A stretch of DNA of 64,000 nt from Methylococcales bacterium. GTDB lineage: Bacteria > Pseudomonadota > Gammaproteobacteria > Methylococcales > Methylomonadaceae. Both the position numbers and the translations under genes were made by a program. The stretch spans positions 19,899 to 83,898 of the forward strand of contig JAQTMV010000001.1 of assembly GCA_028714175.1 (NCBI GenBank), read 5' to 3'. This document shows positions 54,214 to 64,000 of this stretch, in pieces. Below the pieces are notes generated by a model. That model saw nothing but the letters and a program-made list of their open reading frames with translations. It had not been told where the DNA came from and made no database searches. Every line of letters begins with the position of its first letter. Positions within the stretch are counted from its first letter, which is position 1.

Positions 54214-54411
54214 TTTGGTCGACCTTTAAATTCCAGTCCGGGCTCAGAAAAGTTAGACTCGGAAGAATGATGATGATTGAAGTTTGAGTGAATTGAACTC
54301 AGGTATCAAGAATTAGTTCAACTGCCGGTTGTAGTAAACTTTTGCGAAAACTAAAAAAAAGTTTGTGAATCCGTTAGAATTAGAAAACATGAACTTTTTT
54401 ATTGTTAGGAA

Positions 54412-55611
54412 ATGATGCAATCAATTAACTTAGCCTTTAGGATAATTGTTAATATTTTATTAATTATTCAGTTACTTAACGTGGGACTTGTTTATGCCAA
54501 AACTAAACAGACAATCAATATTGCTTATTTAACACAAGAACAGAACATTCCACCGCCATCGTCAAATCTGGATGTTTTTATTAAAAACAAGGGGGTTTCA
54601 GGAGCTGAACTGGCGATTAATGATAACAATACCACCGGAGAATTTACCGGACAGCATTTTAATTTGAAAAAATTTATTGTGCCGCTGGATGGCAATGTTG
54701 TTGATACGTTTAATAAAGAGTTAGCCAAAAAATTTCCATTTGTTGTGGTTAACTTGCCTGCTGATCAGATAAACCTGCTTGCTGATTTGCCTGCTGCCAA
54801 GCAAATGCTGTTATTCGATGTGGCAACAGTGGATGATGCGTTACGCAATGAGCAATGCCGCAATAATGTTTTGCATATTATGCCCAGCCGGGCGATGCGG
54901 GCTGATGCATTGGCGCAATACATGATGAAGAAACGCTGGAGCAAGTGGTTTCTGGTCATAGGAACCACTCCGGAAGATCAATTATTTGCCGAGGCGCTCA
55001 GGCGGGCTGCCAAGCGTTTCGGTATGGACATAGTGGCGGAAAAAACCTGGGAGCATACCTATGATGCCAGGCGCACGGCTCAATCCGAGGTAGCGGTATT
55101 TACCCAGTTGGATGATGACTATGATGTGCTGGTGGTAGCCGATGAACAAGGCCAGTTTGGCGAATATCTTGACTATCAGACCTGGATTCCAAGACCGGTG
55201 ATTGGCACTCAGGGTCTGATTGCTACGGCATGGCATAGAACTCATGAGCAATGGGGCGCTGTGCAGATTCAAAATCGCTTCAAGGAAAAAGCCGGGCGCT
55301 GGATGGAGGAGCAGGATTATGCCGCTTATTTAGCCGTAAGAGCTATTGGCGAGGCGACGACACGCACTAAATCCAATGACACAAACCAGGTTAAAAATTA
55401 TATGTTGAGTGACGCGTTTGCATTACAGGGTTATAAAGGCAATCCTTTATCCTTTCGCTCCTGGGATGGACAGTTGCGGCAGCCGGTTTTACTGGCGGCT
55501 TCCCGGTCATTAGTCGCTGTCGCTCCGATTGAAGGGTTTCTGCATCCAAAAACTGAACTGGATACGTTAGGTTATGATCAACCTGAAACTCAATGTAAAT
55601 GGGATAAATAA
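54412..55611 (+). CDS. Substrate-binding protein of the PQQ-associated ABC system
   Basis: A 399-residue protein with an N-terminal hydrophobic signal, then a branched-chain-amino-acid-type periplasmic binding fold: 'KTKQTINIAYLTQEQNIPPP', 'VSGAELAINDNNTTGEFTGQHF', 'FLVIGTTPEDQLFAEALRRAAKRFGM', 'RPVIGTQGLIATAWHRTHEQWGAVQIQNRF'. It matches the family annotated as ABC binding protein of PQQ-dependent alcohol dehydrogenase systems. The ligand is unknown. Start is one of two tandem ATG codons. It lies 2 bp before the beta-propeller gene and leads a four-gene operon. Confidence 0.88.
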   Translation: MMQSINLAFRIIVNILLIIQLLNVGLVYAKTKQTINIAYLTQEQNIPPPSSNLDVFIKNKGVSGAELAINDNNTTGEFTGQHFNLKKFIVPLDGNVVDTFNKELAKKFPFVVVNLPADQINLLADLPAAKQMLLFDVATVDDALRNEQCRNNVLHIMPSRAMRADALAQYMMKKRWSKWFLVIGTTPEDQLFAEALRRAAKRFGMDIVAEKTWEHTYDARRTAQSEVAVFTQLDDDYDVLVVADEQGQFGEYLDYQTWIPRPVIGTQGLIATAWHRTHEQWGAVQIQNRFKEKAGRWMEEQDYAAYLAVRAIGEATTRTKSNDTNQVKNYMLSDAFALQGYKGNPLSFRSWDGQLRQPVLLAASRSLVAVAPIEGFLHPKTELDTLGYDQPETQCKWDK

Positions 55612-55613
55612 TA

Positions 55614-56576
55614 ATGAAAAAATACGGTTCAAGTTTGTTTTTAGCACTTGTATTAGCAGGAGCCGTGCATGCTGAAACGGTTTTTGTCACGTTGGAAAAA
55701 GACAATGCGCTGGCTGTGGTTGATCCGATTGAGGGCAAGTTAATCAAGACGGTACCGGTGGGCCAGCGCCCCAGAGGCATTGCCATCAGTCCGGATAACA
55801 AGTTTTTGTATATCGCAACCAGCGATGACAATGCGATAAAAATTATTGACGCCGAAACGTTGAAAGAAATCGGAAAATTACCGTCCGGCGATGACCCCGA
55901 GACCTTTGCGTTAAATCCGGCAGGAGACCGGCTTTATGTCTCAAACGAGGATGACAGTCTGGTGACCGTTATTGATCTTGCCAGGAAAAAAGCCGTCAAG
56001 CAAATCAAGGTCGGTGTAGAGCCCGAAGGGATAACAGTGAGTTCCGATAATCGCTGGCTCATCAGCGCTTCCGAAACGACTAATATGGTGCACTGGATTG
56101 ATACCAAAACCAATGCTATCGTGGAGAATACCCTGGTTGATCCACGTCCGCGTGCAGCCGGTTTTACAGCGGATAGTCAACAACTCTGGATAACCTCAGA
56201 AATGGCCGGAACTTTAATGATTCTGGATGCCAAAACCAAACAAATCATCAAAACCATCAGGTTTGAAGTTTCAGGCGTCACTGCCGATAAAATTCAGCCG
56301 GTAGGCGTTGTCATTGATAAAGGCAGGGGTAGGGGCTATGTGGCTCTGGGGCCGGCAAATCGTGTGGCGGTGCTTAACGCACAGACATTTGAAGTTGAAA
56401 AATACTTGCTGGTTGGCCAACGGGTATGGAATCTGGCCTTTTCTCCCGATCAAAAGCGGCTTTACACCACCAACGGTGTCAGTAACGACATTTCCATTAT
56501 TGATCTGGAGAGCCAAACAGTAACCAAATCCGTAGGCGTAGGCACTTATCCCTGGGGCGTTGCAGTAAAGCCATGA
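55614..56576 (+). CDS. PQQ-dependent catabolism-associated YVTN beta-propeller protein
   Basis: A 320-residue secreted protein (signal peptide cleaved near VHA|ETVFVTLEKDNALAVV). It is built of seven repeats of the YVTN type: 'KTVPVGQRPRGIAISPDNKFLYI', 'LPSGDDPETFALNPAGDRLYVSNEDD', 'QIKVGVEPEGITVSSDNRWL', 'VGQRVWNLAFSPDQKRLYTTNG'. It occurs regularly in the PQQ-linked ABC operon and may act as a periplasmic scaffold or binding protein. Its stop overlaps the ATPase gene start by 4 bp. Confidence 0.93.
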   Translation: MKKYGSSLFLALVLAGAVHAETVFVTLEKDNALAVVDPIEGKLIKTVPVGQRPRGIAISPDNKFLYIATSDDNAIKIIDAETLKEIGKLPSGDDPETFALNPAGDRLYVSNEDDSLVTVIDLARKKAVKQIKVGVEPEGITVSSDNRWLISASETTNMVHWIDTKTNAIVENTLVDPRPRAAGFTADSQQLWITSEMAGTLMILDAKTKQIIKTIRFEVSGVTADKIQPVGVVIDKGRGRGYVALGPANRVAVLNAQTFEVEKYLLVGQRVWNLAFSPDQKRLYTTNGVSNDISIIDLESQTVTKSVGVGTYPWGVAVKP

Positions 56577-57313
56577 AGCCGTCGATAGCATTATCCGTTG
56601 AAGATTTGAGTTTCTCGTATGGCGGCAAGAAGGCGCTGGATAGGGTCAGTTTCAAGATACAATCAGGTGATTGCACGCTATTATTAGGCCCTAACGGCGC
56701 CGGCAAGAGTACGTTATTTTCGTTGATTACCCGCTTGTACGATACCCGTGACGGCCGTATCGAATTGTGCGGCTTCGATATTAAACGGCAAACACGCAAG
56801 GCCCTGGCAAAACTTGGCGTGGTTTTTCAGCAAACCACGCTGGATATGGATTTGACGGTGATGCAAAATTTACGCTATCACACCGCTCTGCATGGTATGG
56901 GGCGCAAATTGGCAGCACAGAGAATTCAACAGGAACTGGAACGCTTGAACATGTACGAACGCCGGTTTGAAAAAATACGCCAACTCAACGGCGGGCACCG
57001 GCGGCGCGTAGAAATTGCCCGGGCCCTACTGCATAAACCCTCCGTGTTGTTGCTGGATGAACCCACGGTGGGACTGGATGTGCCCAGTCGGTTAGCCATT
57101 GTCGAGTATGTGCATCAGTTGGCCATCGATGAAAAGCTGGCGGTCTTATGGGCCAGCCATTTAATTGATGAAATTTATCCGGACGATCATTTAATCGTGC
57201 TGCATAAAGGCCGGATTAAAGCCAGCGGCACCGTTGATGAAGTCCTGAAAATATCAAATACTGTAATGATTAAAGATGCGTTTTACACGTTGACGCAGGG
57301 AGATCAGGCGTGA
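56573..57313 (+). CDS. ABC transporter ATPase of the PQQ-associated system
   Basis: A 246-residue ABC ATPase with Walker A 'LLLGPNGAGKSTLFSLI', Q loop 'VVFQQTTLDMDLTVMQNLRYH', a signature with unusual sequence ('QLNGGHRRRVEIARALL', NGGH instead of LSGG) and Walker B 'VLLLDEPTVGLD', followed by a switch histidine in 'WASHLIDEI'. It matches the ATP-binding family of PQQ-dependent alcohol dehydrogenase loci. It overlaps genes on both sides by 4 bp. Confidence 0.93.
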   Translation: MKPSIALSVEDLSFSYGGKKALDRVSFKIQSGDCTLLLGPNGAGKSTLFSLITRLYDTRDGRIELCGFDIKRQTRKALAKLGVVFQQTTLDMDLTVMQNLRYHTALHGMGRKLAAQRIQQELERLNMYERRFEKIRQLNGGHRRRVEIARALLHKPSVLLLDEPTVGLDVPSRLAIVEYVHQLAIDEKLAVLWASHLIDEIYPDDHLIVLHKGRIKASGTVDEVLKISNTVMIKDAFYTLTQGDQA

Positions 57314-58176
57314 CTAATAAGCCGGGAGCGGATATGCATTTACCCGAAGGGCGCAGGGCAGGACCGTCCCGCATGAATATACTTCATTATTGGCGGGCAA
57401 TGTGGGGGATTATCGGGCGTGAATTATGGCGCTTCGTTACCCAGCGTGAACGCTTTATTTCTGCGCTGGTGCGCCCTTTGGTCTGGTTGTTTGTTTTTGC
57501 AGCCGGATTCAGGGCGACATTAGGTCTTGCCATTACCCCGCCTTATGAAACCTATATTCTTTACGAGGTTTATATCACACCGGGGTTGTGCGGTATGATT
57601 CAATTATTTAACGGTATGCAGAGTTCCTTATCCATGGTTTATGACCGGGAAATGGGCAGTATGCGGATATTGATGGTATGTCCGCTGCCGCGCTGGTTTT
57701 TATTGCTCAGTAAATTATTGGCAGGCACTGCCGTATCTATTCTGCAAGTCTATGTGTTTTTAGCGATCGCCTGGTTTTATGACATCAAGGCGCCATGGCA
57801 GGGTTACTTGTGGGTGCTGCCCGCGCTTATGTTGGCCGGGTTGATGCTGGGAGCCTTGGGGTTATTGTTGTCATCGTTCATAAAACAATTGGAAAATTTT
57901 GCCGGGGTCATGAACTTTGTGATTTTTCCCATGTTCTTTATGTCAACGGCATTGTACCCTTTGTGGAAACTTAAAGAATCCAGTGCCTTACTTTATAACC
58001 TGGCAAAATACGATCCATTTTCACAGGCCATTGAGTTAATCCGTTTTGCCCTGTATGGGCAGTTTAATCAGCCGGCTTTCATTTATACGCTGGCTGCTTT
58101 TATCGTTTTCATGACTGCCGCGATTATTGGCTATAACCCATCAAAAGGGATGATGTCAAAAAAAGGCGGTGGTTGA
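57310..58176 (+). CDS. ABC-2 type permease of the PQQ-associated system (PedC-like)
   Basis: A 288-residue inner-membrane protein of the ABC-2 family with six hydrophobic segments. Typical parts are 'WGIIGRELWRFVTQRERFISALVRPLVWLFVFAAGFR', 'YITPGLCGMIQLFNGMQSSLSMVYDREMGSMRILM' and 'NFVIFPMFFMSTALYPLWKL'. It pairs with the ATPase just upstream, probably as an exporter acting together with the binding protein and propeller. The substrate is unknown; relatives occur with PQQ-dependent alcohol oxidation. Confidence 0.92.
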   Translation: MTNKPGADMHLPEGRRAGPSRMNILHYWRAMWGIIGRELWRFVTQRERFISALVRPLVWLFVFAAGFRATLGLAITPPYETYILYEVYITPGLCGMIQLFNGMQSSLSMVYDREMGSMRILMVCPLPRWFLLLSKLLAGTAVSILQVYVFLAIAWFYDIKAPWQGYLWVLPALMLAGLMLGALGLLLSSFIKQLENFAGVMNFVIFPMFFMSTALYPLWKLKESSALLYNLAKYDPFSQAIELIRFALYGQFNQPAFIYTLAAFIVFMTAAIIGYNPSKGMMSKKGGG

Positions 58177-58303
58177 TGAGTCATGCAGCAGTGGATTGCC
58201 GAACCGCCTACGGCTAATCCGGGATTAGCCACGCACCTGATTCACGATTTTATTAAAGAGTTTAATTTGTTCATCCCAGCCTACAATTTTTACAGGTTAA
58301 TTT

Positions 58304-59092
58304 ATGCGCGGAATATGCGGTTGCGGTCAAACCAACAACACCACGAAGCTGAAACCTGTACTCAACAAGAATCAGTACCTTCTCAAACACGACCCCAGTC
58401 ATCACGGTCATGTTCATGATCATCATGACACCGAGCGCCTGGTTAAAGTTGAACAGGATTTACTCAGTAAAAATAATGCTTACGCCGCGCAGAACCGCGC
58501 GTATTTTCAACAGCATCATATATTTGCGCTGAATCTGGTTTCAAGCCCCGGAGCAGGCAAAACAACGCTGCTGGTTGAAACCATTAAAGTTTTAAAAGAC
58601 CGTTTTCCTATTGCAGTTATCGAAGGCGATCAACAGACCGAGCACGATGCGGATCGAATCAGAGCCACCGGCGTACCGGCCCTGCAAATCAATACCGGTC
58701 GCGCTTGTCATCTGGATGCGCACGGTATCGGTCATGCGATCATGGATCTCGGTGTCAAAGACCACAGTCTGCTGGCAATAGAAAATGTCGGCAATCTAGT
58801 GTGTCCGTCTTCATTTGATTTGGGTGAAGCACATAAAATGGTCGTGTTGTCGGTGACCGAAGGCGATGATAAACCAATCAAATACCCGGATATGTTCCAT
58901 GCGGCAGATTTAATGCTGATCAATAAAACTGACTTGTTACCTTATATCGATTTTGATGTGGAGCGTTGTATTCAGTACGCCAGACAGGTTAATCCCGACA
59001 TAGACATCATCAAACTGTCAGCGACTAAAGGTGATAATTTTTCTAAGTGGACAGACTGGCTTGCAGAGCGGGTTAAGCCCAAATTTATGTAA
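58304..59092 (+). CDS. hypB: Hydrogenase nickel incorporation GTPase HypB
   Basis: A 262-residue SIMIBI GTPase that loads nickel into [NiFe]-hydrogenase. It has the N-terminal cysteine motif 'MRGICGCGQ', a histidine-rich stretch ('HDPSHHGHVHDHHD') for nickel storage, Walker A 'LVSSPGAGKTTLLVETI', 'VIEGDQQTEHDADRI', the metal site in 'ALQINTGRACHLDAHGIGHAI', 'LLAIENVGNLVCPSSFDLGEAHK' and 'LINKTDLLPYIDFD'. The other hyp gene visible is hypE at the window end, on the opposite strand, with a restriction-type operon between them. Confidence 0.96.
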   Translation: MRGICGCGQTNNTTKLKPVLNKNQYLLKHDPSHHGHVHDHHDTERLVKVEQDLLSKNNAYAAQNRAYFQQHHIFALNLVSSPGAGKTTLLVETIKVLKDRFPIAVIEGDQQTEHDADRIRATGVPALQINTGRACHLDAHGIGHAIMDLGVKDHSLLAIENVGNLVCPSSFDLGEAHKMVVLSVTEGDDKPIKYPDMFHAADLMLINKTDLLPYIDFDVERCIQYARQVNPDIDIIKLSATKGDNFSKWTDWLAERVKPKFM

Positions 59093-59362
59093 AAGTCCGA
59101 ATATGATCTAACTTTTTCAGGAATTAGTTTAAGCCTCTACAGATATTAAAAATGGTCACTAAAACTGATGGGCTCAAGAAGGTCAAGGACAGCTATACAA
59201 TATAGTGCTCAAACTTTGACCGGATGCATTTTCTTGAAACACATATTTAGATGTGTTTTTCACATTTTATGCTGTAAAATTATTAAGAATTTCTTGAAAT
59301 AGTTTTCGGATAGAAAGATTAGTGCTTCCAACATTACACAGTGTTTTCACTGATTGATAAAC

Positions 59363-59656
59363 ATGACTTACGATGAATTTAAACGACAAGTTGGGAAAGC
59401 CGGCATTACTACTCGTGAATTTGCTAAGTTAGTTAAATTGAACCCTAACTCTATTACTAATTATGCAAAGAAAGGGATAGTTCCATCCCATCTGGCAATT
59501 ATAGTGACACTAATGGGTGAAATGGCTGAAAACAAAATTAACTTCAAGGAAACTTTAGAAAATATCGGCCTTGATTCCAAAAAGCCCCGCAGTAAAGAGA
59601 CTAAAAGTGGATTTAAGCAAAAAAATGCAAATTCGATTGTTACTTCTTCACAATGA
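59363..59656 (+). CDS. Small HTH protein, candidate controller of the methyltransferase operon
   Basis: From ATG at 59363 it encodes 97 residues: 'MTYDEFKRQVGKAGITTREF' and 'AKLVKLNPNSITNYAKKGIV', an XRE-like helix-turn-helix, followed by a lysine-rich tail. A TTG three codons earlier is a weaker start. It ends 9 bp before the methyltransferase gene, as do controller (C) proteins of restriction-modification systems. The 260 bp upstream hold only AT-rich promoter-like sequence. Regulation of the operon is inference. Confidence 0.7.
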   Translation: MTYDEFKRQVGKAGITTREFAKLVKLNPNSITNYAKKGIVPSHLAIIVTLMGEMAENKINFKETLENIGLDSKKPRSKETKSGFKQKNANSIVTSSQ

Positions 59657-59665
59657 TTAAAGATC

Positions 59666-60610
59666 ATGCGCAATAAGATCTTTATGAAAAATACTGAAAA
59701 TTACACAATAAATCCAGGGTCAAGCTCGAAAATACTAACACCAGAAAAGAGTACTTTGGCTGATGTTCTCAAGCATGCTGATTGGTTTGGTACTTCAATA
59801 GAAGGATTTCCATGGGGAGTATATTGTGGAGATGCAGAAGAAGTACTTGAGCGCTTCCCATCGGAATCTATAAATTGCATTGTTACATCCCCACCATATT
59901 ATTGGCTTAGGGATTATGGAGTTGACGGTCAAATAGGACTAGAAGACTCCGTGGATGGTTATGTAAAAGCAATTGTGGGTGTTACTAAAGAGGCCCTTCG
60001 AGTTTTGAGGAAAGATGGTGTGTTGTTCCTCAATATTGGTGACACATACTATTCAGGCAAAGGTGCCTCTCAAGGTCAAGATAAAAAAAGTAATAAACGT
60101 AGATTCGGACTTCGTGCCGTCGATAAGAGTGGTGGACTGGGTATTGGTCTGCAAAGAAAATCAATAATAGGTATTCCATGGCGGGTTGCCATAGAAATGA
60201 GTACTAGCGGATGGGTGTTGAGGAGTCCCATTATTTGGCATCGTGAAAGTTGTTTGCCTGAGCATGTGCGAGATAGACCTAGCCGTAGCTATGAATATGT
60301 TTTTATGTTTGTAAAAGATCGTCGTTACTATTTCAACAAACAACCCTTGATAGATCAGAAGGTGGAAGAGGACATGTGGACAATCCCTGCAAAACCAAAA
60401 GCTAATGGCCTCGATACAGCTCCATATCCAGATGAATTGGTTCGCAGATGTTTAGAAATTGGCTGTCCGCCAGGCGGTGTTGTTTTAGACCCATTCTTAG
60501 GTAGCGGTACTACCGCTAGGGTAGCAGTAAAAATGGGGCACACTGCTATTGGCATTGAGCTCAAAGACGAATTCTGTCGTTATTCAGTAGACCAGTTAAG
60601 AGCAGTCTAA
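59666..60610 (+). CDS. Beta-class DNA methyltransferase (N4-cytosine or N6-adenine)
   Basis: A 314-residue DNA methyltransferase. Motif IV 'CIVTSPPYYWLRDYGVDGQIGLE' is near residue 75 and the SAM-binding motif I 'VLDPFLGSGTTARVAVKMGHTAIGIEL' is near the C-terminus, which is the beta-class order. SPPY rather than DPPY favours N4-methylcytosine. The middle part has 'LRVLRKDGVLFLNIGDTYYSG' and 'IIGIPWRVAIEMSTSGWVLRSPIIWHRESCLPEHVRDR', with a probable target-recognition region in between. The stop abuts the ATG of the ATPase gene. It could protect host DNA from the downstream nuclease. Confidence 0.92.
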   Translation: MRNKIFMKNTENYTINPGSSSKILTPEKSTLADVLKHADWFGTSIEGFPWGVYCGDAEEVLERFPSESINCIVTSPPYYWLRDYGVDGQIGLEDSVDGYVKAIVGVTKEALRVLRKDGVLFLNIGDTYYSGKGASQGQDKKSNKRRFGLRAVDKSGGLGIGLQRKSIIGIPWRVAIEMSTSGWVLRSPIIWHRESCLPEHVRDRPSRSYEYVFMFVKDRRYYFNKQPLIDQKVEEDMWTIPAKPKANGLDTAPYPDELVRRCLEIGCPPGGVVLDPFLGSGTTARVAVKMGHTAIGIELKDEFCRYSVDQLRAV

Positions 60611-62476
60611 ATGTTTATTACGGCTGCCCAAATAGCATCTGCTATCAACGCCTTAAGTGACGTTCATCCATTTCATGGAATAACATTTCTAGCTTGTAAA
60701 AGAGCGAAGTTGCCTGTTGGTGAAAAAATCAATTTTGCGATGGACTCAGTAACAAATGTTTTTCTAACAGAGTTTCACAAGATAGATCCAGACTCAGAGT
60801 GTTTCTATCAGCCATTTAAATCCACGAAAAAATGGTTAAAACATGATTATGCTGCAAGTGGTTTGCAAGCGATTAATACTCAAACATTTGGCAATGCCTT
60901 TTTACATGAACCAAATACTCGTATATGGGGGTGGCACTCTGATTATGTTTCGGTATTGGCATCTAAACTGCCAAAAAGAAAGCGTATACCAGCCTTCCAT
61001 TTGGCTGTTTGGCTTTTCAAGAACAGAGACTGGGATGATAAAACCACCTCTCAGGATTTAATTGATAATTTTGTAAAGGAATTTTTCATAACAGAGGAAG
61101 AGCAAAAAGAACTTTTTGATCTATCAATCCCTTCAGACCTATCGTTAAATAATATTTTCCAGAAAGCTAAAGCTTCTTGGTTTGATCTTCGTCAAATTGT
61201 CACACAACCACCTGATGCTAAACCGGATCAAGGTGGCACACTAGCATTTCTAGAAACTATAAATCTTGGTCCAGCTGAGCATTTAATATTAACACCTGCA
61301 AATCGGCTTACTTTAATAACAGGAGATAATGGACTTGGAAAAACATTTTTACTTGAATGTGCATGGTGGGCATTAACAGGTATTTGGGCAGACAGACCAG
61401 CATTTCCTCGTCCAGCAGTTGAAAAGAGCAAAGCGATGCTTATTTTTGCTATACAGGGAGAACAGTATAGCTCTGAAAAAAAAACTATAGCTTTTGATTG
61501 GAAGACATTGTCATGGCAGGAACCAAAGCAACGACCTACTATCCCTGGTTTGACTGTATATGCTCGCGTAGATGGCTCATTTGCTGTTTGGGATCCAGCT
61601 AAGCAAATGACTCAATCTGTGACTTCTCAGTTTGGGAAGCAAGCAGTTTTTTCAGGAAATGAAGTTTGGGATGGACTACAAGGCAGAATTGAGGGTTTAA
61701 TTCGTGATTGGGTGCGTTGGCAAAACAATCCGACTAAGTATCCATTTGGGATATTTACAAAAGTCTTGGCTTGTTTATCTCCCCCAGATCTTGGTCCTTT
61801 GATACCTGGAGAGCCGGTTCGAATTCCTGATGATCCCAGAGATATTCCTACGATAAAACACCCGTACGGTGACACTCCGATTGTTTATTCTTCAGCAGGG
61901 GTAAAAAGAATTATTACACTTGCGTACTTAATTGTATGGGCATGGAATGAACATATAATTTCTGCCGAATTAGCACGCACAAAACCACAGCGGCGTATGG
62001 TTATACTTGTTGATGAGATGGAGGCTCATCTTCATCCTAGATGGCAGCGCGAGGTCTTACCGGCTCTAATGTCGATTGGAGTATTGCTGAACGAGAAACT
62101 TGAAACGCAGTTTCTTGTTGCGACACATTCTCCTCTAGTTATGGCTTCTGCTGAACCTGTTTTTGATGAGAGTATCGATTCTCTATATCACTTCGACATC
62201 AGTAATGCTGGAGACGTGAGTCTCAAAGAGATGAATTTTGCTCGGTTTGGTGATATATCTTCATGGTTAACTTCACCTATCTTTGAACTTAAACATGCTA
62301 GATCAAAGGAAGCTGAGATTGCAATTGAAGCTGCCAAAGAATTACAAAAGACTAAAGACGTTTCTTCTACAGATGTAAAAGAGGCATCTTTTCAATTAAT
62401 AAAATATCTTGGTTCCGATGATAAGTTTTGGCCGCGTTGGATTTCATTTGCTGAAAAACACGGAATAAAACTGTGA
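60611..62476 (+). CDS. AAA/SMC-type ATPase with unique N-terminal domain (restriction/defence)
   Basis: A 621-residue protein. Residues 1-200 are a domain I do not recognise ('FYQPFKSTKKWLKHDYAASG', 'GWHSDYVSVL', 'IPAFHLAVWLFKNRDW'). From about 225 an OLD/SMC-like ATPase begins: Walker A 'RLTLITGDNGLGKTFLLECAWWALTG', then 'YSSAGVKRIITLAYLIVWAW' (signature-like), Walker B 'MVILVDEMEAHLHPRWQREVLPALM' and 'FLVATHSPLVMASAEPVF'. Such ATPases pair with HNH nucleases in Septu (PtuA) and retron systems. It is sandwiched without gaps between the methyltransferase and an HNH gene (4-bp overlap). The N-terminal domain may read modified or foreign DNA. Confidence 0.85.
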   Translation: MFITAAQIASAINALSDVHPFHGITFLACKRAKLPVGEKINFAMDSVTNVFLTEFHKIDPDSECFYQPFKSTKKWLKHDYAASGLQAINTQTFGNAFLHEPNTRIWGWHSDYVSVLASKLPKRKRIPAFHLAVWLFKNRDWDDKTTSQDLIDNFVKEFFITEEEQKELFDLSIPSDLSLNNIFQKAKASWFDLRQIVTQPPDAKPDQGGTLAFLETINLGPAEHLILTPANRLTLITGDNGLGKTFLLECAWWALTGIWADRPAFPRPAVEKSKAMLIFAIQGEQYSSEKKTIAFDWKTLSWQEPKQRPTIPGLTVYARVDGSFAVWDPAKQMTQSVTSQFGKQAVFSGNEVWDGLQGRIEGLIRDWVRWQNNPTKYPFGIFTKVLACLSPPDLGPLIPGEPVRIPDDPRDIPTIKHPYGDTPIVYSSAGVKRIITLAYLIVWAWNEHIISAELARTKPQRRMVILVDEMEAHLHPRWQREVLPALMSIGVLLNEKLETQFLVATHSPLVMASAEPVFDESIDSLYHFDISNAGDVSLKEMNFARFGDISSWLTSPIFELKHARSKEAEIAIEAAKELQKTKDVSSTDVKEASFQLIKYLGSDDKFWPRWISFAEKHGIKL

Positions 62477-63084
62477 TAGGTATAGTACTACAGCCGGAGC
62501 CTCTTAACTTTAATTCTGATGTTCGAGAACCGGGTAATAAGTTACTTCAAAGAAATCAGAATATAACAGGAAAAAAATTAAAAAATTATTGGACAAAGAT
62601 ATCTTACGATTTGCATGCAGCATATCAAGGAATCTGTGCATACACTTGTATGTATATATTACCGCCTGGTTCAGTAGATCACTTTATGCCAAAAACACAT
62701 TATCCGGATCTAGCTTATGAATGGAATAACTATCGATTGGCATCGCCACGAGTTAATCAACACAAGGCCGATAGCACAGATGTAATTGATCCGTTTAACA
62801 TTCAACCTGGATGGTTTGTGCTTGATTTTCCGAGTTGTCTAGTATTTCCTGGTGATGGATTGCCAGATCTGATCAAGGTGCAGATTGAAAAGACTATAAA
62901 AGTTTTGAAACTTAACGATGATGATATCTTAGTGCAAGAGCGATGCGATATGATGTTAATGTATGCAGATGGTGAAGTTCAACTTGGTTTCTTATCAAGA
63001 CGTTACCCGTTCTTAGCTTTAGAAATCGAAAGACAAAATATCCAAGATACTGTCAATAAAATATTTAAGAAACGTACAAATTAA
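62473..63084 (+). CDS. HNH endonuclease-like protein, PtuB-like partner
   Basis: A 203-residue protein starting at GTG 62473 within the ATPase stop (GTGATAG). The HNH core is visible: 'GICAYTCMYILPPGSVDHFMPKTHYPDLAYEWNNYRLASPRVNQHKAD', seen here as zinc/structural 'CAYTC', catalytic 'VDHF', and the asparagines of 'EWNNYRL' and 'RVNQHK'. The pattern resembles the HNH proteins paired with ATPases in Septu (PtuB) and Ec78-type retrons. It is the presumed effector nuclease of this operon. The quoted core is a family resemblance by eye, not a search result. Confidence 0.75.
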   Translation: MIGIVLQPEPLNFNSDVREPGNKLLQRNQNITGKKLKNYWTKISYDLHAAYQGICAYTCMYILPPGSVDHFMPKTHYPDLAYEWNNYRLASPRVNQHKADSTDVIDPFNIQPGWFVLDFPSCLVFPGDGLPDLIKVQIEKTIKVLKLNDDDILVQERCDMMLMYADGEVQLGFLSRRYPFLALEIERQNIQDTVNKIFKKRTN

Positions 63085-63318
63085 CCAGTTTGAAAATTTT
63101 TAGTTAGTAATGCTGCTTTTCCAAACTTGTCGTTTGATTTCTTTAGAAATCTATGGGTTATTATCGATAAATAATTCTATTAGTTTTTCCAGTATCTGAA
63201 ATGTATCGAATCCAGCTCATCAATGCCAGATTTGGTTTGAACTAATTTTTTAGAAGCCGTCAAATCAAGTCTAGGAGGCTTATACAGATCACAAGGGTTG
63301 ATTAGCTGTGGTATAGTA
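63085..63318. other. Non-coding gap between the HNH gene and hypE
   Basis: AT-rich, convergent gene ends on both sides. No integrase, tRNA or obvious direct repeat marking an insertion end was seen. Confidence 0.5.
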
Positions 63319-64000
63319 TCAGCATATCCTCGGCAATTGCTCGCCGCTCAATAAATCCAGAACCCGGCTGATGCCCATCGCCGTTTGTAGTGTTACCAGT
63401 CCTTTCGGGTGAGCTGTTTTAACCTTGCCGATCAAACAAGCCTGTGCACCAAGGAGATGTTCGCATAAAGCGGCCAAGGCTTGTCCGGTATGGGCTTCAG
63501 GCACAAACAGCGCAAAACAACCTTCGTTGGCGATGTAAATCGGATCAAAGCCTAAAATTTCACAGGCACTTTTAACATCCGGGTGTATTGGCAGTGCTGT
63601 TTCGTTGATTTCGATAGCATGATGTGATGCAGTGGCCAGTTCTATCAGACAGCTGGCTAACCCGCCGCGTGTTAGGTCGCGCATGCAGTGGATGTCGATA
63701 CCGGCTAGAATTAAATGCTGAACCAGTCCGGACAGGTCTGCACAGTCGCTTTGTATCGTGCTTTCAAAGTTTAAGCCTTCCCGCTCCAGCATGACGGCGA
63801 TGCCGTGTCGTGCCAGGTCGCTGTTAATGATAATGCTGTCACCGGCTTGAATTCCCGCAGGCGAAACGTTGATGTTTTCGCCAACAATGCCGATGCCGGC
63901 GGTATTGATATAAACCCCGTCGCCGCTGCCGTGGTCGACCACTTTGGTGTCGCCGGTCACAATCAATACACCTGCCTGTTGCGCAGTTTGCTGCATGGAC
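63319..64000 (-). CDS. hypE: Hydrogenase maturation protein HypE, N-terminus beyond window
   Basis: The C-terminal two thirds of HypE, open to the window edge. Visible are 'AGVLIVTGDTKVVDHGSGDGVYINTAGIG', 'IIINSDLARHGIAVMLEREGL', 'IHCMRDLTRGGLASCLIELA', and the invariant C-terminal 'LPRIC' whose cysteine carries the carbamoyl that becomes the cyanide ligand of [NiFe]-hydrogenase. It is convergent with the restriction-like operon and with hypB beyond it. Its presence suggests the organism assembles a [NiFe]-hydrogenase. Confidence 0.96.
   Translation of the reverse strand, partial: SMQQTAQQAGVLIVTGDTKVVDHGSGDGVYINTAGIGIVGENINVSPAGIQAGDSIIINSDLARHGIAVMLEREGLNFESTIQSDCADLSGLVQHLILAGIDIHCMRDLTRGGLASCLIELATASHHAIEINETALPIHPDVKSACEILGFDPIYIANEGCFALFVPEAHTGQALAALCEHLLGAQACLIGKVKTAHPKGLVTLQTAMGISRVLDLLSGEQLPRIC

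Follow-up and report, generated by a model that had tools for sequence, protein, structure and literature searches.

How does a Septu defence pair, PtuA and PtuB, come to stand directly behind a DNA methyltransferase, and what could the methyltransferase contribute to its action? The question is raised by four genes in a 64,000-nucleotide stretch of DNA from a Methylococcales bacterium (GenBank assembly GCA_028714175.1, contig JAQTMV010000001.1, positions 19,899 to 83,898; the whole stretch is called the window here). They encode a helix-turn-helix (HTH) protein, a DNA methyltransferase (MTase), an ATPase and an HNH protein, the last two of which are PtuA and PtuB of Septu, as identified by hidden Markov models. 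The answer that we favour, with slightly better than even confidence, is a restriction-modification-like Septu cassette in which the MTase would mark host sites and an N-terminal domain of PtuA (N-domain) would read the unmarked copies and license the PtuAB nuclease. The gene order, the spacing, the catalytic motifs, the recurrence of three of the genes and the homology of the N-domain to the N-terminus of McrB-like proteins are read directly from the sequences. The genes and their motifs are located in the window as follows.

59363..59656, plus strand: HTH protein, 97 residues; weak MerR/HTH_17 and mad1 matches, the Pfam matches being below cut-off
59666..60610, plus strand: beta-class N4/N6 DNA methyltransferase, 314 residues; Pfam N6_N4_Mtase 148 bits, PADLOC MTase_II 280 bits
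59885-59899 and 60488-60511, plus strand: MTase motifs TSPPY and DPFLGSGT, respectively
60611..62476, plus strand: PtuA, 621 residues, N-terminal domain followed by an ABC/SMC-type ATPase; PADLOC PtuA1 865 bits, full length
60611..61240, plus strand: N-terminal domain of PtuA, approximately residues 1-210; AF2 (AlphaFold2) model with pLDDT 93.6 and pTM 0.89; predicted site or methylation reader
61322-61345 and 62012-62017, plus strand: PtuA Walker A (GDNGLGKT) and Walker B DE (of VDE), respectively
62473..63084, plus strand: PtuB, HNH-type nuclease of 203 residues; PADLOC PtuB1 231 bits; conserved DH..N..K, with DH at 62677-62682

The open reading frames (ORFs) were re-derived, and their spacing of 9 bp, 0 bp and a 4-bp overlap agrees with a preliminary description of this DNA. 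The HTH gene starts with ATG at 59363, a TTG at 59354 being a possible alternative. TSPPY lies near the N-terminus of the MTase and DPFLGSGT near its C-terminus, which is the beta-class order; the S-adenosylmethionine-binding and catalytic motifs are intact, and the earlier assignment to the SPPY-type beta-class enzymes is thus borne out. The same can be said of the proposed likeness of the ATPase/HNH pair to PtuA and PtuB, given the two PADLOC scores and the fold comparison of the PtuA model, whose top structural matches are the PtuA of E. coli Septu and a retron PtuA. PtuB also has matches, each short of the cut-off, to the NCBIfam families PtuB (E 1.8e-8) and TIGR02646 (E 9e-7), and none in Pfam. 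No Pfam family was found for the N-domain either; this domain, which distinguishes the window's PtuA, had gone unremarked in the preliminary description. The genome contains a single PtuA of this type, the other weak match (E 1.2e-6) being a different ATPase.

Is the arrangement found elsewhere? The survey covered 79 genome loci (best 80 of 501 confirmed relatives), 14 viral loci and the window; the genome loci are biased towards the N-domain PtuA family because the best-scoring relatives were taken. Three fragmentary rows were left out, and the remaining 85 PtuA rows were placed on a tree of the ATPase domain by a quick method. The N-domain is present in 64 of the 85, 19 are short PtuAs that lack it and 2 are cut by contig ends. 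An MTase stands directly upstream of PtuA in 51 of the 64 N-domain loci, the window included, which makes the MTase, described earlier as built in, a conserved partner of PtuAB; the others have an MTase remnant (5 loci), neither MTase nor remnant (7 loci) or lie at a contig end (L022). In all 51 cases MTase and PtuA are on the same strand and -11 to +31 nt apart, a spacing far beyond chance. The MTase of L044 is apparently frameshifted near its end, and that of L023 is cut by the contig end. None of the 19 short-PtuA loci has a directly upstream MTase of this family (L062 offers just 846 bp of upstream sequence, and L058 has a distant MTase 5.5 kb off). Sixteen short PtuAs form one branch of the tree, and the other three (L058, L062 and L067) are found among N-domain forms without MTase. 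The hosts belong to Pseudomonadota, Thermodesulfobacteriota, Bacillota, Cyanobacteriota, Chloroflexota, Acidobacteriota, Bacteroidota, Planctomycetota and others, and include one Methanosarcina. Among 398 genomes drawn evenly from the window's phylum, three gave a match to the N-domain profile, namely the genome of the window itself, L122 (PtuA and MTase) and L123 (a weak match to a McrB-like protein).

By the evidence of these neighbourhoods the recurring unit consists of three genes, i.e. a SPPY-type beta-class MTase, a PtuA with an N-domain of about 210 residues, and PtuB. The HTH gene is local and outside the conserved unit, since at the surveyed loci a homologue was seen in the window only and another HTH-like ORF directly upstream of the MTase was noticed by eye just in L082 among the MTase-bearing loci. 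The co-occurrence of all four genes in other genomes, on which the preliminary description had made its proposal depend, therefore holds for the MTase, PtuA and PtuB and fails for the HTH gene, and the idea of a built-in controller finds no support for the family as a whole.

In one part of the family the MTase has been exchanged. The PtuAs of L038, L039 and L042-L046 nest within the N-domain clade, but their MTases form a separate MTase branch together with the McrB-linked plasmid MTase L117, so the slot has been refilled by a non-orthologous MTase.

What, then, is the N-domain? It is homologous, as judged by profile comparison, to the N-terminus of McrB-like AAA+ proteins that stand beside the same MTase family. 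In hhalign runs the N-domain aligned end to end with the N-termini of the L112-type McrB-like proteins (26 sequences; Prob 97.9, E 2.9e-12, 177 columns) and with those of the L115 type (26 sequences; Prob 89.9, E 2e-7, 196 columns), where the E-values are pairwise and not database E-values. With full-length McrB-like alignments the probabilities were 96.6 and 82.8. Controls with the MTase, PtuB and three ATPase parts (from the PtuA ATPase and the McrB AAA regions) gave Prob <= 0.2, and the same held for 16 column shuffles and for two profiles that had been reversed.

The McrB-like proteins were met on plasmids, where the MTase family has 239 records, nine neighbourhoods of which were opened. 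Four of the nine (L111, L112, L115 and L116) carry, after the MTase, an N-domain McrB-like AAA ATPase and a further gene; upon scanning, this second gene matched Pfam McrBC in L111 and nothing in L112, and that of the L115 type is conserved in viral relatives. In three others (L110, L118 and L120) the MTase is next to an XcyI-family endonuclease, and in L119 next to a SmaI-like ORF that is below the Pfam cut-off. In the last one, L117, the MTase is followed by a short hypothetical gene and then by an AAA_5 ATPase without N-domain. With McrB baits, the plasmid and viral collections yielded 6 full-length N-domain loci and the MTase was directly upstream in all 6; four of these had first been met via the MTase, so that the two viral loci are the sole independent support. 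In three rhizobial plasmids (L151-L153), the MTase lies between an HTH gene and a gene for a 672-aa protein, and a DUF2357 gene completes the cassette. The 672-aa protein of L151 has an N-domain-like start (hhalign Prob 69.5, E 4.2e-5, 194 columns) and a weak AAA match, and the last gene of the L151 cassette encodes DUF2357 with a PD-(D/E)XK nuclease domain. In gene order these cassettes repeat the window's layout with a different engine, and in these three McrB-type cassettes an HTH gene does precede the MTase.

A few further proteins were met on the way. The 161-aa protein between MTase and ATPase in L117 (L117:4576-5058) is weakly N-domain-like (Prob 24) and is a possible stand-alone reader. 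In P0161 (472 aa) an N-domain-like stretch is joined to another kind of C-terminal part, which has neither a precomputed Pfam domain nor a match in PADLOC; the protein could possibly represent a further effector type. Two plasmids of the Arthrobacter group (L146 and L147) have a LlaJI-like cassette of a regulator, two DNA MTases, a protein of ~266 aa, a McrB-like ATPase without N-domain and a large partner; the 266-aa protein of L146 matches MTaX1.

For a domain that is common to two unrelated NTPases and that occurs beside one MTase family, site reading is the simplest role to propose. Our view is that the N-domain probably reads the site or its methylation within a modular restriction system whose effector can be PtuAB, McrBC or an ordinary endonuclease. 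In such a system the MTase would mark the sites of the host, and the N-domain of PtuA would bind to unmarked copies of the site, methylation presumably blocking the contact with DNA. Binding would change the ATPase state of PtuA and, in an ATP-dependent manner, activate PtuB, whose HNH nuclease would then cut the incoming DNA. N-domain and MTase would together be a recognition module combined with different effectors (PtuAB, McrBC), and the MTase family would also serve plain endonucleases such as those of the XcyI type. We further speculate, giving this broader proposal somewhat less than an even chance, that the portable reader of ~210 residues and its cognate N4-type MTase are a plug-in module on unrelated engines of bacteria and archaea (the Septu ABC-ATPase/HNH pair and McrB/McrC motors, besides a possible stand-alone form), that this module turns Septu into methylation-guided restriction with exchangeable targets, and that the reader has re-diversified as a free-running sensor where the MTase was dropped. 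The restriction reading of the preliminary description is strengthened by the XcyI-type and McrBC-like partners of the MTase family.

It is instructive to compare the locus with known systems. XcyI-type endonucleases cut the site that their MTase protects, and the target of XcyI, Cfr9I and SmaI is CCCGGG. The MTases of these type II restriction-modification systems are ~39-44% identical to that of the window, which has PtuAB as partner instead of a single endonuclease. Since M.Cfr9I, M.SmaI and M.XcyI are classed as cytosine-N4 MTases (PMC8557920), N4-methylcytosine (m4C) is a plausible mark of the window MTase. LlaJI is a McrBC-like pair with MTases that restricts unmethylated DNA; DNA with the LlaJI site is bound by the McrB-like subunit, whose N-terminal part is credited with this function (PMC1459862). 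LlaJI shares with the window an NTPase with an N-terminal specificity part (a predicted one in the window), a separate nuclease gene and cognate MTases (PMC1459862). The effector is an ABC ATPase with an HNH protein in the window and a McrB-like GTPase with a PD-(D/E)XK nuclease in LlaJI. McrBC-type restriction-modification was considered as the class of the window locus itself and rejected, as its ATPase is ABC-type and its nuclease HNH-type.

The Septu features proper, an ABC-type PtuA ATPase with Walker A and B and an HNH PtuB directly after it, are all present, and the Walker residues of PtuA and the HNH residues of PtuB are essential in an E. coli Septu (PMC13096335). Compared with Septu type I, which has the same PtuA and PtuB, the window adds the N-domain and the directly upstream MTase, neither of which is found in the 19 short-PtuA loci. 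Retron I-A / Ec78 (PADLOC Septu type II) has the same effector pair with a reverse transcriptase, in place of which the window has a DNA methyltransferase; PADLOC, Pfam and NCBIfam revealed no reverse transcriptase among the four insert genes, no search for a non-coding RNA having been made. MADS, an eight-gene system, also has HTH, MTase and AAA/ABC-type ATPase genes, and its models do match in the window (mad1 E 0.011 and mad2 E 8.7e-13 in PADLOC; MAD3 E 1.8e-4, below cut-off). MADS was rejected as the identity of the locus: the similarity is weak, and the insert has four genes instead of the mad1-mad8 set.

Several observations weigh against a methylation-guided Septu. The N-domain found no confident fold match in the structure comparison, and the two McrB-like sets aligned with each other by their AAA parts only. 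The McrB-like protein of L123 has a weak and partial N-domain match (E 2.4e-4), and no MTase of this family was found in its ~1.3 kb of readable upstream sequence. The distances between the proteins give no clear signal either: over 48 loci, the partial correlation with MTase distance was the same for the N-domain and the ATPase (r = 0.27 each; -0.22 for PtuB), N-domains beside the swapped MTase are just 0.01-0.05 more diverged than expected, and the 2-4 phylogenetically independent pairs are too few for testing a link between N-domain and MTase. A further objection comes from the 12 of 64 N-domain loci without an intact adjacent MTase, i.e. those with remnants upstream of PtuA (L013, L018, L019, L036 and L068) and those with neither (L025, L028, L029, L053, L059, L066 and L084). 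Nine of the twelve have intact Walker and HNH motifs, the exceptions concerning PtuB, which is split into two short ORFs in L059, short in L084 and, in L019, located past the end of the contig; with a classical toxic endonuclease, loss of the MTase would not be expected to be tolerated. Nine of these genomes were searched for a related MTase (E <= 1e-10), and six had one, mostly as partial or distant matches, and three had none. The one in the L053 genome shows 44% identity over the greater part of the protein, and at some of these loci the missing enzyme could be replaced by an MTase encoded elsewhere. Upstream of the PtuA of L036, a gene of 1112 aa leads straight into a C-terminal piece of an MTase that is 101 aa long (L036:518-4158).

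A Nostocales clade deserves separate mention: L025, L028, L066 and L084 have no MTase, and the upstream flank of L022 is unreadable. Here the N-domain is the fast-changing part of PtuA, with a protein difference of 14-35% vs 2.4-4.7% in the ATPase core and a synonymous divergence (dS) of 0.24-0.44 vs 0.07-0.12 in the ATPase. For comparison, the N-domain/ATPase ratio is 1.3-2.6 in 28 close MTase-bearing pairs (ATPase difference <= 0.30), and dS, usable in 7 of these pairs, is similar for N-domain and ATPase, the N-domain being slightly higher in 5 and lower in 2. The raised dS suggests that N-domain alleles are exchanged, rather than that selection is merely relaxed. This pattern fits a specificity or sensor role, but one that is untied to an adjacent MTase in this clade, and so it too counts against our reading. 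At the nucleotide level these genes are mosaics in which a near-identical ATPase core is flanked by an N-domain that is hypervariable and a PtuB that is variable (identity to L066 of 92-99%, ~72-94% and mostly 70-99%, respectively).

These findings have to be set against other explanations. Some studied PtuAB pairs act on tRNA and not on DNA: PtuAB of retron-Eco7 and of Septu EcB88 lead to loss or cleavage of tRNA-Tyr (PMC11555353, PMC13096335). One could therefore imagine a methylation-guarded abortive infection, where PtuAB would be a nuclease of host tRNA, released when the N-domain senses a loss of methylation or the inhibition of the MTase by a phage, and where the MTase is the guarded partner. 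PrrC (in EcoprrI) and PARIS do sense the inhibition of restriction systems (PMC12707154), and some lineages tolerate the loss of the MTase. We nevertheless regard this explanation as unlikely, as the homologous N-domain is found on McrB-like effectors, where the partner of the L151 ATPase has PD-(D/E)XK, and plain type II endonucleases occur as partners of the MTase family, too, both of which point to DNA as the target; moreover, if loss of the MTase were the trigger, toxicity would be expected of those loci where PtuAB motifs are intact beside an MTase remnant (e.g. L013, L018 and L068).

The loci devoid of an MTase could also be taken to mean that the enzyme is an accessory, a stabilising addiction gene beside a PtuAB that works alone and whose N-domain senses a phage feature unrelated to methylation. 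The seven loci that have neither MTase nor remnant beside PtuA would be in line with this, and so would the rapid change of the N-domain in the Nostocales clade, as might be expected of an arms-race sensor. It remains difficult to see, however, why 51 of 64 loci should keep the MTase within translational range, why one clade should have refilled the same slot with a non-orthologous MTase, and why, where the effector is an unrelated one, the N-domain should again go with this MTase family, and we hold this explanation to be improbable as well. That a solitary MTase and an ordinary Septu pair came together by chance in a defence island seems hardly credible: the insert is AT-rich and missing from a relative, as is often the case for acquired genes, but chance would not produce 51 recurrences at near-zero spacing across many phyla.

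To our knowledge, target choice and self-avoidance of Septu are unsettled outside the retron-controlled forms. An MTase-linked Septu with a dedicated N-domain would make target choice directly testable, and, if our reading is true, a common domain would link Septu and McrBC restriction via one recognition module, and the N-domain would provide a handle on specificity by domain exchange. No description of an MTase-linked Septu was found in the literature searched, largely without full-text reading, and within it the N-domain appears to be undescribed as a recognition domain. The PADLOC models already call the two proteins PtuA1 and PtuB1 and hold the MTase as a separate family. The consulted part of the PADLOC paper covers the reverse transcriptase-linked Septu and a separate Hma operon, and an MTase-PtuA-PtuB unit is not found in that part (PMC8565338). 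The CoCoNuTs paper mentions that McrB-like GTPases can be associated with DNA methyltransferases, but leaves these proteins for a later study (PMC11090510).

Finally, the genomic setting is that of an insertion between the convergent genes hypB, which ends at 59092, and hypE, which starts at 63319 on the opposite strand. Its edges are the following.

59093..59362, no strand: left insert edge, AT-rich intergenic DNA after hypB; empty site in L134
63085..63318, no strand: right insert edge, AT-rich intergenic DNA before hypE (minus strand)

In L134, a genome of the same family, the ORF ends of hypB and hypE are ~30 bp apart with no gene between them; the four window genes are thus an insert of ~4.2 kb. 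The insert has a GC content of ~33-43% vs 45-52% in the nearest coding flanks (55000-58750 and 63250-63999), in agreement with the AT-rich, acquired-type region that had been described between the two hyp genes. A second AT-rich dip lies near 54250, outside the insert. The window genome also has a hypB-like second copy (G000:C90:19066-19632, L145) with 95% identity across residues 1-189.

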